DNA from: a bacterium
GTDB lineage: Bacteria > Krumholzibacteriota > Krumholzibacteriia > LZORAL124-64-63
NCBI GenBank assembly: GCA_024231905.1
Contig: JAAEQC010000059.1
Location: 1 to 64,000 of the forward strand
Length of the DNA: 64,000 nt
Direction of reading: 5' to 3'
A model generated the notes under the pieces. That model saw nothing but the letters and a program-made list of their open reading frames with translations. It searched no databases and was not told the origin of the DNA. A program made the translations under genes and the position numbers. Shown piece after piece: positions 41,446 to 53,235 of the stretch (positions are counted from its first letter, which is position 1; the number at the start of each line of letters is the position of its first letter).

Positions 41446-42897
41446 ATGGACGGAATGAAGCGCGGAATCGTACTGGTGTGCGGAATGGCCCTGTGGCTGG
41501 CCGTCGGTGCCGCGGGTGCGGAGCAGGGCAGCTACTGGTACGCGGTGGACCATGTGACCACCGTGGACGAGGACGCACGCATGGTGGTCTGGGCCACCCT
41601 GCCGCCGGACTGGCACGGACAGGCGATCACGGTCGGGAACATCGTTCCCGAGCCAGTGGGTGTCTTTAGGGACCCCCGCACGGGCAACCGCGTGGTGGAG
41701 TGGCTGGTGGAGCCCGAAGCGGGCAACCCTGTCCTCAGCACGTTCTTCCACTACGAATTCGATTTCACTGAGCGGCCGGTGCGCATGGCGATCGATCCCG
41801 CGGCGGTGAAGCCCTACGACGAGGACTCCGAATTCTTCCGGACCTACACAGCTCCGGAAACCTGGATCCCCGTGGACGGCCCGGTCCGCCACCGGGCCCT
41901 GGCCATCGTGGGCGGGGAGACGAACCCCTGGTTGCAGGCCGGCCTCATCTACGACTGGATCATCGGCGAGCTGGTCTTCGAGATTCCCGGGCCCGCGGGT
42001 CGCGACGCAGCCTCGGTGCTGGACGCTCGCCGCGGCGAGTGCGAGCAGTTCAGCGTGCTCATGGTGGCCATGTGCCGCTCGCTCGGCATTCCCGCCCGCA
42101 CCGTGACCAACGCCTGGACCACCGGCGGCGACCACGTCTTCGTGGAATTCTGGCTCGAGGGCTACGGCTGGGTGCCGGCCGACCCCTCCCTGGGCCAGAT
42201 GCTCGGTCCCGGCGGCGGCGGTTTCGGGAGCGAGGACGTGACCTCCATCATGGAGTCCCGCAACGTGCCCCTGGGCGATCCCCGCTGGTTGCTGGGCAAT
42301 CTTTTCGACGGCCGCCTGGTCATCAGCGTCGGCAACGACATCGCCTTCGACTCGCCCACCCTCGGCCGCCGGGTCACCCTGCACAGCGCCCGGCCGGGCG
42401 GCGACCGGGCGCGCCCGGACGGCTTCCTCATCGAGGGTCTGAACGACGATCTGGTCCACGGCGGCTTCTTCGTTTTCGGTCGGCGCCTGGCCGACGAGGA
42501 CGAAGCCCACGATCTGACCCATCACCGTCTGGCCGACCGTTTCTTCGACGTGGGCATGGTGGACATCGTCGAGGACGTGTGCCGCGCCTCCATCGAGCAG
42601 GACGCGGCGGGGGTCACGCCCTGGCTGAACATGGGCCGCGTCTACATGCACAAGGGCCAGTACTACAAGGCCGAGGCGGCCTTCAAGCGAGCCCTCATCA
42701 CGCCTTCGGCCAAGCGCACGGAGCGCCTGGCCGGCCTCATCTGGGCCCACAACTACCTGGGCAACCTCTACGACCTCATGGACCGGCGGGACATGGCGCT
42801 GGCCGAGTACCAGGCGGTGGTCGAGCGGGGTAACAATTTCAGGGGGGCTGTTGACTATGCGGGGCGGTTCCTGGAGGAGCCGTTTACCGGGCAGTAG
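41446..42897 (+). CDS. Secreted transglutaminase-like protein with TPR tail
   Basis: 483 residues with a signal peptide (about 4-24). The transglutaminase-like core has the catalytic Cys in R-R-G-E-C-E-Q-F-S-V-L, the His in G-D-H-V-F-V-E-F-W and the Asp in V-P-A-D-P-S (about 195-247). A TPR-like region occupies the C-terminus (about 385-475, with L-N-M-G-R-V-Y and N-Y-L-G-N-L-Y). Such periplasmic proteins are thought to cleave or crosslink peptides. It follows the cytochrome gene by 34 bases with GGAGG upstream and may be cotranscribed. A 32-bp perfect hairpin begins in its stop codon. Confidence 0.83.
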   Translation: MDGMKRGIVLVCGMALWLAVGAAGAEQGSYWYAVDHVTTVDEDARMVVWATLPPDWHGQAITVGNIVPEPVGVFRDPRTGNRVVEWLVEPEAGNPVLSTFFHYEFDFTERPVRMAIDPAAVKPYDEDSEFFRTYTAPETWIPVDGPVRHRALAIVGGETNPWLQAGLIYDWIIGELVFEIPGPAGRDAASVLDARRGECEQFSVLMVAMCRSLGIPARTVTNAWTTGGDHVFVEFWLEGYGWVPADPSLGQMLGPGGGGFGSEDVTSIMESRNVPLGDPRWLLGNLFDGRLVISVGNDIAFDSPTLGRRVTLHSARPGGDRARPDGFLIEGLNDDLVHGGFFVFGRRLADEDEAHDLTHHRLADRFFDVGMVDIVEDVCRASIEQDAAGVTPWLNMGRVYMHKGQYYKAEAAFKRALITPSAKRTERLAGLIWAHNYLGNLYDLMDRRDMALAEYQAVVERGNNFRGAVDYAGRFLEEPFTGQ

Positions 42898-42969
42898 GCA
42901 GACAGACGAAGGCCCCACTCCGAGCGCGTTGCGCAGCCGCGCTCGGAGTGGGGCCTTCGTCTGTCTGCC
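42897..42969. terminator. Perfect 32-bp inverted repeat directly after the transglutaminase-like gene
   Basis: Left arm 42897-42928 and right arm 42938-42969 are exact reverse complements; the loop TTGCGCAGC is 9 bases. The left arm starts at the last base of the stop codon. No T-run follows. It is one of four long hairpins placed right at gene ends in 42.9-51.1 kb and much longer than an ordinary terminator stem. Function as terminator or 3' end stabiliser is inferred. Confidence 0.8.
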
Positions 42970-43621: not shown

Positions 43622-43690
43622 GCCGAGTCCACGAAGGCGGGACGCCCCCCCCGGCGGCCCTCTTCCACGCACGTGCTGCGAAGTTGGGTT

Positions 43691-43766
43691 CGCTCACGAA
43701 GAGGACGGGACGGCGTTGGCCGATGGTCTCCGACCAAGAACCGCCGTCCCGTCCTCTTCGTGAGCG
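43691..43766. terminator. Long inverted repeat between DUF1579 and YceI genes
   Basis: Arms 43691-43715 and 43742-43766 are perfect 25-bp reverse complements and extend to 29 bp with one G-T pair. The 26-base loop contains TTGG...CCAA that can pair further. It lies between convergent genes, and the right arm ends 4 bases before the YceI stop. No T-run follows on either strand. Confidence 0.75.
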
Positions 43767-43770
43767 GACC

Positions 43771-44370
43771 CTACTTAGCCCGCACCAACTCGATCTCCAA
43801 CTCGATCTCCACGTCGTTTCCCACCACGAGCCCCCCCGCCTCCAGGGCCTTGCTCCAGGTGAGACCGAAGTCGCGCCGGTCGATCTTGCCCTCGGCGCTG
43901 AAGCCCATGCGGGTGTTGCCCCAGGGGTCATTGACCTGGCCCAGGTATTCCAGCTCGAGTTCGACGGTTTTCGTCACGCCGTGCAGGGTGAGTTCGCCCG
44001 TGAGGACGCCGTCCCCGCCGTCCGTGGCGACGCCCGTCGACTTGAACGTCATGGTGGGGAACTTCTCCACGTCGAAGAAGTCGGCGCCCGTGAGATGCTC
44101 ATCCCGCTTCTCATTGCCCGTGTCCACCGAGGCTACCTGAATGGTGATCTCGGCCAGGAAGGTCGCCGGTTTGTCGGCCTCGCCCGTGAGGGTGCCCGTG
44201 ACGTCGCCGAAGCTGCCCGTCACCTTGCTGATGGCCATGTGCTTCACCTTGAAGCCCACGTGGCTATGGCTGGCGTCCAGGTTCCAGTCGGCGGCCGCTG
44301 CGGGCAGGGCCAGGAGCACCGTGGCGCTCAGAACCATGAAGCCCAGCAGGCTCTTGCGGGTCGTTTTCAT
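43771..44370 (-). CDS. YceI-family periplasmic lipid-binding protein
   Basis: 199 residues with a signal peptide (1-27, ending A-A-A-A-D). The body has the YceI pattern W-N-L-D-A-S-H-S-H-V-G-F-x-V-K-H, D-F-F-D-V-E-K-F-P-T-M-T-F-x-S and the late G-F-S-A-E-G-K-I-D-R-R-D-F-G-L-T-W. Family members form a lipocalin-like barrel that holds a polyprenoid. AGGAGGAAC precedes the ATG at 44370. Confidence 0.92.
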   Translation of the reverse strand: MKTTRKSLLGFMVLSATVLLALPAAAADWNLDASHSHVGFKVKHMAISKVTGSFGDVTGTLTGEADKPATFLAEITIQVASVDTGNEKRDEHLTGADFFDVEKFPTMTFKSTGVATDGGDGVLTGELTLHGVTKTVELELEYLGQVNDPWGNTRMGFSAEGKIDRRDFGLTWSKALEAGGLVVGNDVEIELEIELVRAK

Positions 44371-47246: not shown

Positions 47247-49511
47247 ATGACCATCGAGACGACCAAGGACCTGGTGAGTGGAGCCTACGCGACCACCCGG
47301 CGCAACCTCGAAGTCGTGCGCGGGCGCCTCGGCCGTCCCCTGACCCTGGCCGAGAAGGTTCTCTACGGGCACCTGGCCGACGCGGCGGGGCAGGAGCTCG
47401 CCCGAGGCGAGGCCACCCTGGCCCTGAGGCCGGACCGGGTCGCCATGCAGGATGCCACTGCCCAGATGGCCATCCTCCAGTTCATGCAGGCCGGCCGTGA
47501 CGAGACCGCCGTCCCGACCACCGTGCACTGCGACCACCTGCTGCTGGCCCACAAGGGCGCCGCCCACGACAAGGCCCACGCCCTGGACGTGAACAAGGAG
47601 GTCTACGGCTTCCTCAGTTCCGCGGCCGACCGTTACAACATGGGTTTCTGGAAGCCAGGCAGCGGCATCATCCATCAGATCGTCCTGGAGAACTACGCTT
47701 TCCCCGGCGGCCTGATCATCGGTACCGACAGCCACACCCCCAACGGCGGCGGCCTGGGCATGGTGGCCTGCGGCGTGGGGGGCGCCGACGCGGTGGACGT
47801 CATGGTGGGCATGAACTGGGAAGTGAAGGACCCGAAGATCATCGGCGTGAAGCTCACCGGCGCGCCCAGCGGCTGGACCGCCCCTAAGGACGTCATCCTC
47901 AAGCTGCTGGGGATCCTCACGGTCAAGGGCGGCACCAACGCCATCATCGAGTACTTCGGACCGGGCACCGCGGCCCTCAGCTGCACGGGCAAGGCCACCA
48001 TCACCAACATGGGGGCCGAGTTGGGCGCCACCACCAGCATCTTCCCCTGGGACGACCGCATGGGCGCCTACCTGAACGCCACCCAGCGGGCGGACCTGGC
48101 CGAACTGGCCGCCGCGAACAACGATCTGTTGACGGCCGATCCGGAAGTGGCGGCGAATCCGGAGGAGTACTACGACCAGGTCATCGAGATCGACCTGTCG
48201 ACCTTGGAGCCCCACCTGGTGGGTCCCCACTCGCCGGACATCGCCCACCCGGTGGGACGCATGGCCGCCGATACGGATGCCGAGGGCTACCCGGAGGCGC
48301 TCACCGCCGCCCTCATCGGCAGCTGCACCAACAGCAGCTACGAGGACATCTGTCGGGCCACCGACGTGGCCGAGCAGGCGGTGGCCAAGGGCCTGAAGAT
48401 GAAGGCTCCCCTGTGGGTCTCCCCGGGCAGCGACCAGATCTACGAGACCATCAAGCGCGACGGCCAGCTGGCCAAGCTCGAGGCCGTGGGGGCCACGGTT
48501 CTGACCAACGCCTGCGGTCCCTGCATCGGCCAGTGGCAGCGGGACGACATTTCCGATGGCGACGCCAACAGCATCGTCACCAGCTTCAATCGCAACTTCA
48601 AGAAGCGCGCGGACGGCAACCCGGAAACCCACGCCTTCATCGGCTCGCCGGAGATCGTCATGGCCTACGGACTGGCCGGCACCCTGAAGTTCAATCCCCT
48701 GACCGACGACCTGACCAGCGAGTCGGGCGCCGCGGTGAAGCTGAGTCCGCCCGCCGTGGCGGACGAACTGCCCCGGGACGGTTTCGTCACCTCCGCCGGT
48801 GGCTACCAGGCCCCGAGCGAGGGCACCGAAGGCGAGGTCGTCGTGAGTCCGGACAGCGAGCGCCTGGCCCTGCTGGAGCCTTTCAGCGCCTGGGACGGCG
48901 GCGACTACGCGGGCCTGCCTTTGCTCATCAAGGCCCTGGGCAAGTGCACCACCGACCACATCTCCATGGCCGGCCCGTGGCTCAAGTTCCGCGGCCATCT
49001 GGACAACATCTCCAACAACATGCTCATCGGCGCCGTGAACGCCTTCACCGAGGAGACCAACAGCGTCAGGAACGTGGAGACGGGTGAGTACGACGCGGTC
49101 CCGGCCACGGCCCGGGACTACAAGGCTCGCGGCCTGCGCTGGGTCGTGGTCGGCGACGAGAACTACGGCGAGGGCTCCAGTCGCGAGCACGCCGCCATGG
49201 AGCCGCGCCACCTGGGCTGCGCCGCGGTCATCGTGCGCAGCTTCGCCCGCATCCACGAGACGAATCTCAAGAAGCAGGGGATCCTACCCCTGACTTTCAG
49301 CGACCCGGCCGACTACGACAAGGTGGCCGAGGGGGATCGGTTCGACCTGGTGGGGCTGGCCGATCTGGCGCCGGGGAAGAGCGTGGGTTGCGTCCTGCAC
49401 CACGCCGACGGGTCCGAGGACCGGTGCGAACTGGGCCATACGATGACCGTCGAACAGATCGAGTGGTTCCGGTTCGGGTCGGCGTTGAACCGAATCAAGG
49501 CCGAGGGGTGA
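47247..49511 (+). CDS. acn: Aconitate hydratase, mitochondrial type
   Basis: 754 residues. The three [4Fe-4S] cysteines are in S-C-T-N-S-S and N-A-C-G-P-C-I-G, and the substrate motifs [11 protein letters not shown] and S-S-R-E-H-A-A are present. The sequence resembles the eukaryotic mitochondrial aconitase ([21 protein letters not shown]) more than the long AcnA of enterobacteria; this type is known in Bacteroidetes and relatives. It interconverts citrate and isocitrate in the TCA cycle. A TATAGT box (47157-47162) may be its -10. A 31-bp hairpin starts 7 bases after the stop. Confidence 0.95.
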
Positions 49512-49517
49512 AAGGAA

Positions 49518-49601
49518 CCGGGGGAGTCGCGGGCGTCGCCGGGATACGCTTGGTCCTGCGGCCCGGCGAACGTATCCCGGCGACGCCCGCGACTCCCCCG
49601 G
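49518..49601. repeat. Perfect 31-bp inverted repeat with conserved apical core (copy 1)
   Basis: Arms 49518-49548 and 49571-49601 are exact reverse complements, with a 22-base loop (49549-49570). The top of the stem (GGATACG / CGTATCC) and the loop are the same as in the hairpin at 51060-51147 except for two bases, while the outer stem is unrelated to that copy. It begins 7 bases after the aconitase stop. No T-run follows. Confidence 0.85.
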
Positions 49602-49690
49602 CCGTGCCTTCTCCCTCGGAACGTGAAGGTGTGGCGAGAACAGGTTGGGCATAGGCGAGGGAGTCCCGACCGGTCGACGGGGGCGGTCGC

Positions 49691-50242
49691 ATGCGGGTGC
49701 ATTTCGAGGATCGTGAGTCCTGGCGCGGATGGCTCGACGAGAACCTCCGTGAGACGCGAGAGGTCTGGTTGGTCTTCGATAAGACGCATACCGGGCGCCG
49801 GTGCATCACCTACGACGCCGCCGTCGAGGAAGCTCTTTGTGTCGGCTGGATCGACAGCATCATCAAGCGTCTCGACGGCGAACGGTACATGCGGAAATTC
49901 ACGCCTCGTACGAACACGGGCAACTGGTCGAAGTCGAACCTCAGGCGGGTCGAGAAGCTCGTGGCCGCCGGCCGGATGACCGCGGCGGGGTTGGCGAAGC
50001 TGAAACCCGATGCCCGGCAGGTGCAGCAGGCTTCGTCCGGGACCGTCGAAGTACCGGATTTCTTCGCGGAGGCGCTGGCGGGAAACAAGCCCGCCCGGGA
50101 GTTCTTCAACGGGCTCGCGCCTTCGTACCGGCGGCATTTCATCGGCTGGGTGGGTTCCGCCAAGGGCGAGGAGACCCGCGAGAGACGCCTCGCGGAAGCA
50201 CTGTCACTTCTTCAGCAGCAAAAGAAGTTGGGCATGAAGTGA
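49691..50242 (+). CDS. YdeI/OmdA-family protein
   Basis: 183 residues. The sequence pattern W-R-G-W-L-D-E-N, then E-E-A-L-C-V-G-W-I-D-S, P-R-T-N-T-G-N-W-S-K-S-N and Y-R-R-H-F-I-G-W-V-G-S-A-K is that of the YdeI / OmpD-associated (OmdA) group. The role is unclear. It lies alone between the aconitase hairpin and the SDR gene. Confidence 0.88.
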   Translation: MRVHFEDRESWRGWLDENLRETREVWLVFDKTHTGRRCITYDAAVEEALCVGWIDSIIKRLDGERYMRKFTPRTNTGNWSKSNLRRVEKLVAAGRMTAAGLAKLKPDARQVQQASSGTVEVPDFFAEALAGNKPAREFFNGLAPSYRRHFIGWVGSAKGEETRERRLAEALSLLQQQKKLGMK

Positions 50243-50297
50243 TGCGGCCCTGCAGAAGTTTTTAGCCGACGAAGCGACTACCCCGGAGGATGGATTC

Positions 50298-51053
50298 GTG
50301 AACGAAACGAGCCTGGCGGGGCGGCGAGCCCTGGTCACCGGCGCCAGCCGCGGCATCGGCCGCGCCATCGCCGAGATACTGGCCGAGGCGGGAGCCTGTG
50401 TGGCCGTCCATTTCCGTTCCGCCGCGGATGAGGCGGCGGCGGTCGTGGCCGGAATGCCGGGGGAGGAGCACGTCACCGTGGGCGCCGATCTGGGGGATTC
50501 CGGACAGGCGCGCGAACTGCCCGACCGGGTCGCCGACGCCTTGGGCGGCCTGGACATCGTGGTCAACAACGCCGGCATCTTCGAGCCCCATGACCCGGCC
50601 GGTTCCGACGACTCGGCCTGGCTCGGGGCCTGGGACCGTACCCTGGCCGTGAACCTCACCGGCCCCGCCCTGGTGATCCGCGGCGCCGTATCCCACCTGG
50701 AAGCCGCCGGCGGCGGTCACGTGGTGAACATCTCCAGCCGCGGCGCCTACCGCGGCGAACCCGGCGCACCCGCCTACGGTGCCGCCAAGGCCGGCCTCAA
50801 CAGCCTCACCCAGTCCCTGGCCCTGGCCCTCGCCTCCAGGAATATCCACGTGGTCGGCGTCGCCCCCGGCTGGGTCGAATCCGACATGACGCGCGAGTAC
50901 CTGGCCGGCCCCCTGGGCGCAGAGATCCGCGCCCAAAGCCCCCACTACCGCGTAGCAACAGCCGACGAGGTCGTTTTGCTGGTGGTCTCGGGAAAGGCAG
51001 ACGCTCTGACAGGCGCCATCATCGACGTCAACATGGCTTCCTATTTACGCTGA
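50298..51053 (+). CDS. Short-chain dehydrogenase/reductase (FabG-like)
   Basis: 251 residues with the Rossmann motif T-G-A-S-R-G-I-G-R-A (about 14-23), N-N-A-G, the catalytic Ser in N-I-S-S and the Y-G-A-A-K pair (about 155-159). It uses NAD(P)H to reduce a carbonyl or the reverse; the R at the end of the second strand region favours NADP but is weak evidence. The substrate is unknown. The GTG start has GGAGGA upstream. A 33-bp hairpin starts 7 bases after the stop. Confidence 0.9.
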   Translation: MNETSLAGRRALVTGASRGIGRAIAEILAEAGACVAVHFRSAADEAAAVVAGMPGEEHVTVGADLGDSGQARELPDRVADALGGLDIVVNNAGIFEPHDPAGSDDSAWLGAWDRTLAVNLTGPALVIRGAVSHLEAAGGGHVVNISSRGAYRGEPGAPAYGAAKAGLNSLTQSLALALASRNIHVVGVAPGWVESDMTREYLAGPLGAEIRAQSPHYRVATADEVVLLVVSGKADALTGAIIDVNMASYLR

Positions 51054-51059
51054 TCCGAC

Positions 51060-51147
51060 AGGCAGAGGAGGTGGTAGGGGGTTCTGGATACGCTTGGGCC
51101 TGCGGCCCTGCGAACGTATCCAGAACCCCCTACCACCTCCTCTGCCT
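51060..51147. repeat. Perfect 33-bp inverted repeat with conserved apical core (copy 2)
   Basis: Arms 51060-51092 and 51115-51147 are exact reverse complements around a 22-base loop (51093-51114). Stem top and loop match the copy at 49518-49601 at all but two positions. The outer 26 bp of the stem are purine-rich on the left arm and unrelated to copy 1. It fills the whole space between the convergent SDR and dgt genes, ending 1 base before the dgt stop. Confidence 0.85.
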
Positions 51148-51148
51148 A

Positions 51149-52408
51149 TCAGACCAGGTCAACTATGGAGCCATAGTCCGGATCGAAGAGGCGCTTGTAG
51201 ATGCGTGACGCGAATCCGTCCGTCATGTTCGCTAGATAGTCGCAGATCACCCGGGCCTTCCGCGCCTCGGTCTCGGCGGCGTCCATCTCCTGGGCCAGGG
51301 CCGCCGAGAGCAGGGCCTGGGGGCGGTCGCTGCCCAGGTAGTTGTCGATCAGGGCGCCGAAGATGCGCTCGAGCATGAAGCCGCCCTTGTGCTCGAGCTG
51401 GCACACCTGGGGCGATTGGAAGACGACTTCCCGGGCCAGGCGGGCGTAGAGTTTCTGCTCCTTGGCCGCGGCCGGGTCGATGGCCAGGCCGAACCGGTAG
51501 CGGTTGGTCAGGTCGGCCAGGAAGTTATCCCGCTCGACCAGGGTGCAGGCCCCGACGAAGGTCCCGATGCGCCGGTTCATGACCCGTTCCAGCTCGTTTC
51601 CCGCCAAGGCGTCGATCAGTCCCTCCACCGCGCGCTCGTCGTCCCTATCCAGATCCCGGGCGGCGGCCCAGCGCTGCAAGGCGTCGATGGTCACGAAGCC
51701 GGCGTTGGCGCTGTCCACCAGGTCGTTCAGTGAATAGGCCGTGTCGTCGGCCCAGTCCATGATCTCGCACTCGAGGCTGCGGAAACCGTTGCGCGGTTTG
51801 CCGGGGGCGAGGTCATCGGGGAAGGGTCTGCCCTCGCAGACGAACTCCAGGTACTGCTGCTGGTCGTCGTAGAGGAAGTGGTTGTGCGGGTCGTCCCACT
51901 CGCGAAAGAGCGTCTTGTACTTGAGGACGCCGTCCATGAAGGCGCGGGTGGGATTCAGTCCGCGGCGGCTGCGGCCGCTGGTGAAGATGATGCGGGTGAT
52001 CAGGCGCAGGGTCTGGGCGTTGCCCTCGAAGCCTCCCCAGGGCTTCATGAGCCGGTGCAGGGTGGCCTCGCCCGCGTGGCCGAAGGGCGGGTGACCGATG
52101 TCGTGGGCCAGGGCGCAGCTCTCGACCAGGGCGGTGTCGATGTGGAAGCCGGGACGCAGGTGCGGTGCCTCGGCGTTGAGGGAGCGGGCGATGGAACCGG
52201 CGATCTGGCTCACTTCGATGGAGTGGGTCAGGCGGGTGCGGTAGAAATCGTACTCGCCAGACAGGAAGACCTGGGTCTTGGCCTGGAGGCGGCGAAAGGC
52301 CGAGTTGTGGATCAGCCGGTCCTTGCCTCGCTGGAAGACCGAGCGGTAGTCCGGGTCATGCGGCTCCAGCTCGGTGCGGTCGAAGTCGTTGTAGAAGGCG
52401 TTGCTCAT
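51149..52408 (-). CDS. dgt: Deoxyguanosinetriphosphate triphosphohydrolase-like protein
   Basis: 419 residues of the HD superfamily. Metal ligands are visible in R-L-T-H-S-I-E-V and A-H-D-I-G-H-P-P-F-G-H-A-G-E; the start, Y-R-S-V-F-Q-R-G-K-D-R-L-I-H-N-S-A-F-R-R-L, is typical (split here for reading). It hydrolyses dNTPs to nucleoside and triphosphate. Its start overlaps the stop of the TrmH-family gene by 4 bases (ATGA), so the two are cotranslated. Confidence 0.92.
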   Translation of the reverse strand: MSNAFYNDFDRTELEPHDPDYRSVFQRGKDRLIHNSAFRRLQAKTQVFLSGEYDFYRTRLTHSIEVSQIAGSIARSLNAEAPHLRPGFHIDTALVESCALAHDIGHPPFGHAGEATLHRLMKPWGGFEGNAQTLRLITRIIFTSGRSRRGLNPTRAFMDGVLKYKTLFREWDDPHNHFLYDDQQQYLEFVCEGRPFPDDLAPGKPRNGFRSLECEIMDWADDTAYSLNDLVDSANAGFVTIDALQRWAAARDLDRDDERAVEGLIDALAGNELERVMNRRIGTFVGACTLVERDNFLADLTNRYRFGLAIDPAAAKEQKLYARLAREVVFQSPQVCQLEHKGGFMLERIFGALIDNYLGSDRPQALLSAALAQEMDAAETEARKARVICDYLANMTDGFASRIYKRLFDPDYGSIVDLV

Positions 52409-53235
52409 GGCGTCGTCTCCGGAGTGGGGCCGCGGCGCTGGCGCACCGCTTCGTAGAGGAGAACGGCGGCCGAGGCGGCCACGTTCAGGGAATCGCCGGT
52501 GCCGGCCATGGGGATGGATACGGCGGACCGAGCGCGGGCCAGCCAGGCCGCGGTCAGGCCCGTATCCTCGGCACCCAGGACCACGGCCACCGGGCCGGCC
52601 AGGTCGCAATCGCACCAGGAGAGGTCCGCGTCGGGGCTGGTGGCCACGGCGACTATTCCGTGCGCAGCGAACCAGGCGGCAGCCTCGTCAACGTCCGCCA
52701 GGGCCGTGGGCAGGCTGAAGCACGCGCCCCGGGAGGCGCGCAGGACGTTGGGGTTGTGCAGGTCCGTGCCCCCGGCGCAGACTACGAGCCCGTGAGCCCC
52801 GGCGCCGTCGGCGATGCGTTGCACGGCACCCAGATTGCCCGGTTTCTCCACCGCCTCCAGGACCACGTACAGGGCGGGTTCCGTCGCGGGCGCTGTCCAG
52901 TCCGCCAGGCTCGCCGCGACTTGCGGGGCCACCACCAGCAGACCCGCTGATCGCTCGCGGTAGGCGACCCGGTCCATGACCGTGGGGGCAACCTCCACCG
53001 CGGGCACGCCGCCGGCGGTGATCCGGCCGCGCAGTTCCGCCGTGGCCGGCGCTTCCTGTTCCGGGCAGAACCAGACTTCAGTGCAGGGGTGGCCGGCGGC
53101 GAGGGCGCGGGCAATGACCAGAGGTTCCTCAACAATGGTTAGACCCAGGCGGTCCCGCTCGCGCCGGTTGCGCAGGCGGACCAGGTCCTTGACCCGGCTG
53201 TTGGCCGTGCTGGTGATGCGGGCGGTACTCGCCAT
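52405..53235 (-). CDS. TrmH/SpoU-family RNA methyltransferase
   Basis: 276 residues. An N-terminal substrate-binding domain (about 1-100, starting I-T-S-T-A-N-S-R-V-K-D-L-V) is followed by a SPOUT domain with L-E-A-V-E-K-P-G-N-L-G, V-V-L-G-A-E-D-T-G-L and S-I-P-M-A-G-T-G-D-S-L-N-V-A-A-S-A, which form the knotted SAM site. It probably 2'-O-methylates a ribose in rRNA. AAAGGA precedes the ATG. It is in an operon with dgt. Confidence 0.92.
   Translation of the reverse strand: MASTARITSTANSRVKDLVRLRNRRERDRLGLTIVEEPLVIARALAAGHPCTEVWFCPEQEAPATAELRGRITAGGVPAVEVAPTVMDRVAYRERSAGLLVVAPQVAASLADWTAPATEPALYVVLEAVEKPGNLGAVQRIADGAGAHGLVVCAGGTDLHNPNVLRASRGACFSLPTALADVDEAAAWFAAHGIVAVATSPDADLSWCDCDLAGPVAVVLGAEDTGLTAAWLARARSAVSIPMAGTGDSLNVAASAAVLLYEAVRQRRGPTPETTP

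Follow-up and report, generated by a model that had tools for sequence, protein, structure and literature searches.

Hairpins in the window

The window is a stretch of 64,000 nucleotides from a bacterial genome of the class Krumholzibacteriia (designated G000). Within 8.3 kb it carries four long hairpins (H1 to H4), the first two of which were absent from the first-pass annotation. The hairpins and the neighbouring genes are as follows:

42897..42969, no strand: H1, a 32-bp perfect hairpin with a 9-nt loop and a short variant of the tip; the left arm starts on the final G of the TAG stop codon that ends a transglutaminase/TPR gene
43681..43776, no strand: H2, 35-nt arms with 33 positions paired and 25 bp perfect, between a DUF1579 gene (+) and a YceI gene (-); the YceI stop codon lies within the right arm
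47247..49511, + strand: aconitase gene, with 6 bases between its end and H3
49518..49548, + strand: H3 left arm, 31 nt, separated by 6 bases from the aconitase stop codon
49542..49577, + strand: H3 apical core, GGATACG followed by the 22-nt tip CTTGGTCCTGCGGCCCGGCGAA and CGTATCC
49571..49601, + strand: H3 right arm, the exact reverse complement of the left arm
49691..50242, + strand: YdeI/OmdA-type gene, between H3 and H4
50298..51053, + strand: short-chain dehydrogenase (SDR) gene, ending 6 bases before H4
51060..51092, + strand: H4 left arm, 33 nt, separated by 6 bases from the SDR stop codon
51086..51121, + strand: H4 apical core, matching the H3 core at 34 of 36 positions
51115..51147, + strand: H4 right arm, with the stop codon of the HD gene, which is convergent, 1 base away
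51149..52411, - strand: HD-domain phosphohydrolase gene (dGTPase-like), convergent, ending at H4

H3 (49518-49601) consists of a perfect 31-bp stem and H4 (51060-51147) of a perfect 33-bp stem, each closed by a 22-nt loop. Their 36-nt cores (49542-49577 and 51086-51121) are 94% identical, with two substitutions that both fall in the loop, and the 7 bp at the top of the stem are the same in both. The remaining 24 bp of H3 and 26 bp of H4 have no similarity. The first-pass annotation had described two hairpins with a common tip on unrelated perfect stems, and the description is borne out by the 34 shared tip bases of 36 and by the length of both perfect stems. Each hairpin starts at the seventh base after the upstream stop codon (stops ending at 49511 and 51053), and H4 fits between two stop codons. 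Both are GC-rich hairpins downstream of a stop codon, as terminators are; no T-run follows either stem, and a simple terminator scan calls neither. RNA folding gave z-scores of -11 and -14 for H3 and H4, and of -11 to -14 for all four hairpins of the window.

The same gene ends were compared in relatives. Where another gene directly follows the HD gene, there is no hairpin at that spot. At the end of the aconitase gene, relatives have different hairpins or none, and the spacer against which an empty site would be compared is strongly diverged.

Long hairpins elsewhere in the genome

Perfect stem lengths in about 1.2 Mb of G000 are bimodal, with one group at 11-17 bp and another at 21-33 bp. 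In simulated first-order Markov sequence of the same composition (5 x 1 Mb) the longest perfect stem was 15 bp, as against up to 33 bp in the real sequence. Compared with the four hairpins in 8.3 kb of the window, the rest of the 1.2 Mb has seven perfect stems of at least 21 bp.

The first-pass annotation had suggested searching the rest of the genome and related genomes for GGATACG-N22-CGTATCC. The exact core of H3 and H4 is limited to two copies in G000, is missing from 37 relatives when up to 3 mismatches are allowed, and is missing from GTDB 220. As a genome-wide marker it was rejected, and it is better regarded as a local tip variant. Variants of the tip occur on other long hairpins. The tip at C102:171694, CTTGGCCTGCGGCCTGCGGA, is a variant of the H3/H4 tip, and further variants are carried by C102:221344 and C102:221620, which are reverse complements of each other except for one base, and by the long hairpins at C218:282231 and C218:282440. 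Aligned on the tip, seven G000 hairpins have, with small departures, ACG-CT...CGAA-CG flanking a variable mini-hairpin. A loose pattern for this G000-type tip was tried elsewhere and rejected, as its matches mostly lacked hairpin form. At C33:123065, C218:282231 and C102:171694 the hairpin starts within the stop codon or the last codons of a gene. One G000 hairpin comes after an apparent SRP RNA gene, identified by eye.

Distribution in related genomes and other phyla

A covariance model of the tip and 18-bp arms was used to search related genomes, and identified hairpins in seven genomes from six other genera of the same family. The tip consensus in these relatives is GTCC-TC, a 5-bp mini-hairpin with a 3-nt loop, and TGC-GGAT, of which G014 has a variant. 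A conserved tip on locus-specific, near-perfect stems, first noticed in two hairpins, thus proves to be a family property across genomes. Copy numbers, which are pattern-based lower bounds, amount to at least about 19 in G009 and at least about 28 in G019, with a per-genome maximum of about 30 among the copies listed.

An exact tip scan of GTDB 220 returned 101 stretches, mostly from Krumholzibacteriia. The minority comes from uncultured Coriobacteriaceae/Collinsella, one Patescibacteria genome, and one Polyangiaceae MAG, whose copy is a tip with almost no stem and may be a chance match. In Coriobacteriaceae the tip tops T-tract hairpins after stop codons, and a partial T-run follows the stem. 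In Patescibacteria bin.69 (L282:2531, L287:3151) two 15-bp stems with almost the same sequence carry the tip directly 3' of tRNA genes. In G005 (L132:266-436, L277) it sits on a stem of 4-5 bp and faces an inverted copy with a longer stem about 93 nt away. The exact tip pattern matched no viral contigs, and a viral origin was rejected.

No Rfam family scored over the gathering threshold, and a loose threshold gave microRNA matches below the gathering score; a literature search of open-licence papers found no published description of the hairpins. The lack of an Rfam match supports the suggestion of a possibly undescribed class of repeat, which now concerns a repeated tip in terminator-type hairpins that spans distant phyla.

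The genomes are MAGs, apparently mostly short-read, and perfect fold-backs can arise in assembly or library preparation. An artefact of this kind has some observations on its side: a Collinsella contig (L291, CASFIQ010000118.1) runs back on itself through the tip, carrying the upstream gene a second time in inverted orientation up to the contig end, and is probably itself an assembly or library fold-back, while many contigs of G019 and G009 (L175-L193, L195-L211) end within a few bases of tips. However, MAGs that were assembled independently have hairpins with diverged arms at the same sites, and the window hairpins are bounded on both sides by distinct, intact genes and so are not fold-back artefacts. 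As an account of the family, this one is very improbable. The contig ends indicate that the hairpins break short-read assembly and that copies may be hidden, and many short-read assemblies of the group are probably broken in this way.

Anatomy and position at gene ends

The arms are locus-specific and usually 25-50 bp long. In a gap-free alignment of 28 copies, the tip elements GTCC, TC, TGC and GGAT are invariant and the middle of the mini-hairpin covaries. Standard pairs make up 98.5% of the cells in this alignment, a single arm cell is G.U, and double-changed cells number 260, compared with 75 in shuffles. Over 56 hairpins, 1868 pairs are Watson-Crick, 26 are A.C/C.A, 12 are G.T/T.G, and 21 are other mispairs, the asymmetry between the 12 and the 26 being modest (two-sided p 0.034). 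Selection on RNA would favour G.U, and because the mispairs are not biased towards it, they argue for copying of DNA.

The hairpins are located at the ends of genes. Of 80 complete cases, 62 have a sense open frame whose stop is in the 5' arm or close to it, and in 44 an opposite open frame ends near the 3' arm, both counts being inflated by spurious frames in GC-rich DNA. The stop codon falls within the left arm in 16 of the 62 sense-gene cases, and its start ranges from 74 nt before the left arm to 16 nt inside it. The 7-base distance from stop to hairpin, which had been noted for H3 and H4, is therefore correct for these two and is not a rule of the family (-74 to +16 nt relative to the left arm).

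Composition changes with distance from the tip. Counting from the tip along the 5' arm of the 56 hairpins, positions 1-8 are rich in G, positions 9-19 in A, and those further out in G and C. Read along the gene, this gives a GC-rich hairpin, then a T-rich stretch in the 3' arm opposite the A-rich positions, and then more paired stem. The lower 3' arm is thus paired even though transcription would be expected to stop before it. A role in termination had been set aside in the first-pass annotation; the gene-end position and the T-rich 3' arm of the relatives point to it.

A rival explanation would be ordinary terminators or mRNA 3'-end hairpins, in which selection on RNA keeps the pairing and a protein or RNA polymerase recognises the tip, with no copying involved. 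It accounts for the position and the T-rich 3' arm, for the Coriobacteriaceae tips on T-tract hairpins, and for the ordinary drift in one set of orthologues described below. It is nevertheless considered unlikely, as G.U is nearly missing and rarer than A.C, pairing goes on past the T-rich stretch for another 10-20 bp and reaches into the end of the coding sequence, and concerted changes dominate where sites can be compared.

Exact pairing might also be required of the DNA itself. If a protein bound the cruciform or hairpin, for example in replication, segregation or uptake, selection would act directly on an exact inverted repeat; Watson-Crick pairing that does not tolerate G.U is consistent with this, and the conserved tip would be exposed in a cruciform. 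Such selection, if strong, could also yield concerted arms. In keeping with this, no match to the hairpin nuclease SbcD exceeded the curated cut-off in 22 genomes of the class, where only weak matches were found, and its lack could let long palindromes persist. SbcD is unmatched with or without hairpins, does not discriminate between the genomes, and was rejected as the cause. A DNA-level function leaves the gene-end position and the T-rich 3' arm unexplained, and the copies listed per genome number about 30 or fewer. It is judged improbable.

How arms and tips change

Orthologous sites show 52 concerted and 19 one-arm pair changes, although the pairs are not all independent. One comparison (L196/L302), with an upstream identity of 90.6%, has five concerted changes and no one-arm change. 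In another (L125 and L222), two genomes have hairpins at the same gene end in which the arm is conserved where it meets the stop codon and the stems, each near perfect, are mostly unalike elsewhere. This almost complete difference is what stem replacement at one locus, which the first-pass annotation had suggested looking for in close relatives, would produce. It had also named drift with imperfect pairing as evidence against copying. Drift of this kind, with 2-4 mispairs per stem, is found in one orthologue set (L156/L200/L263/L273), whereas concerted changes dominate overall.

Tips of the same genome are 86-97% identical to one another, whereas arm identity past position 19 falls to 27-31%, the random level (7 and 3 hairpins). 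Neighbours less than 4 kb apart carry the same mini-hairpin variant in 5 of 5 pairs, compared with 113 of 635 other pairs (18%; permutation p 0.00035), and one of the five may be common to G009 and G019 by descent. H3 and H4 fit this rule, as do C102:221344 and C102:221620; H1 and H2, like the C218 pair, do not have identical tips.

Homogeneous, lineage-specific tips and neighbours with the same tip would be expected of a small mobile element, in which a hairpin-acting enzyme (transposase, reverse transcriptase or recombinase) moves the tip and insertion leaves the arms as a by-product. The G005 tips on stems of 4-5 bp and the patchy presence in other phyla also favour such an element. In G000, which is 94.7% complete, there is no match to a RAYT (Y1) transposase or to a reverse transcriptase domain (PF00078) of the kind that drives group II, DGR and retron elements, such a domain being present in some hairpin-bearing relatives, and both were rejected as drivers. 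The lack of the exact pattern in viral contigs likewise speaks against mobility, as does the location at gene ends, where related genomes keep several copies next to the same gene, unlike what free insertion would give. The explanation is accordingly given little credence, slightly less than a DNA-level function.

Proposed origin and maintenance of the stems

Place and composition fit terminators, and exact, concerted arms fit the copying of DNA; rewriting by fold-back at the tip is proposed for this reason. With moderate confidence, the hairpins are interpreted as bidirectional terminator-type hairpins at the ends of transcription units, and DNA template switching is taken to create their arms and keep them perfect. 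Hairpins can be created, maintained and corrected when replication switches template (PMC8794818). Each hairpin combines a lineage-specific tip, an internal loop under the 5-bp mini-hairpin, with a locus-specific, near-perfect stem; this stem starts within the end of the preceding gene, right at it or close to it. The hairpin would act as a putative bidirectional intrinsic-type terminator through its GC-rich upper stem and, in the relatives, its T-rich 3' arm. A nascent strand is envisaged to fold back at the tip and copy one arm from the other, so that a change in one arm would be written into its partner and new local sequence could be turned into a different stem. Neighbouring hairpins probably also swap tips, and such an exchange would account for H3 and H4. 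Because neither a Y1 transposase nor a reverse transcriptase domain was matched in G000, ordinary replication enzymes are the likely agents. The copying mechanism put forward in the first-pass annotation is therefore retained in part: concerted arms, tip-sharing neighbours and mispairs without a G.U bias speak for it, while the dedicated palindrome-making element that it invoked was not found in these searches.

A bolder form of the same idea, which is entertained only tentatively, makes the tip itself the palindrome-maker. A single-stranded tip would fold, prime synthesis back over the new strand, and turn adjacent sequence into a perfect inverted repeat. Tips would spread locally by the same route and be kept at gene ends as working terminators. 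This would amount to a self-spreading sequence with no enzyme of its own, present in at least three bacterial phyla.

How long perfect stems originate and are maintained has yet to be settled in the study of RNA and genome evolution. The family, in which a single tip tops many stems in several related genomes, supplies dozens of natural replicates for telling copying apart from selection.

Comparison with known systems

Several known repeats have features in common with the family. REP sequences are multi-copy extragenic palindromic repeats in which the stem and a GTAG at the 5' end are conserved, and they accompany a RAYT transposase. The family conserves the tip and not the stem, as the random-level arm identity shows, and no Y1 transposase was matched in G000. 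DNA uptake sequences of Neisseria and Pasteurellaceae also place a repeated motif within terminator hairpins at gene ends. There an inverted pair of the motif forms the stem and copies are very many, whereas the motif of the family is the tip and the listed copies are about 30 or fewer. Integron attC sites are hairpins past a stop codon with a variable inner part and conserved boxes at the base. The family has the opposite arrangement, with a conserved apex, a variable base, and unrelated outer arms that lack conserved outer core boxes.

The likeness to intrinsic (Rho-independent) terminators lies in a GC-rich hairpin just past the stop codon, often between convergent genes, with a T-rich 3' arm in the relatives and T residues after the stem in Coriobacteriaceae; the difference is a stem of 25-50 bp that stays near perfect beyond the T-rich stretch. 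Bacterial perfect inverted repeats are reported usually to conserve the arms and to vary in the spacer (PMC13155455), a pattern that is reversed in the family, where the tip is conserved and the arms turn over. Perfect stems, concerted changes in both arms, and apparent stem replacement at a fixed place are shared with template-switch hairpins and quasipalindrome correction (PMC8794818). In contrast to those, the sites described here are marked by a repeated conserved tip, belong to a bacterial lineage, and have stems several times the typical length of an rRNA stem.

Two further hairpins were recorded in relatives. One, a very long member downstream of a relative's aconitase gene (L071:2860-2979, G016), has 49-nt arms with 46 positions paired and a 22-nt loop. 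The other (G018:C3:84447-84573) is an AT-rich hairpin with 31/32 positions paired and a 63-nt loop, without the usual tip.
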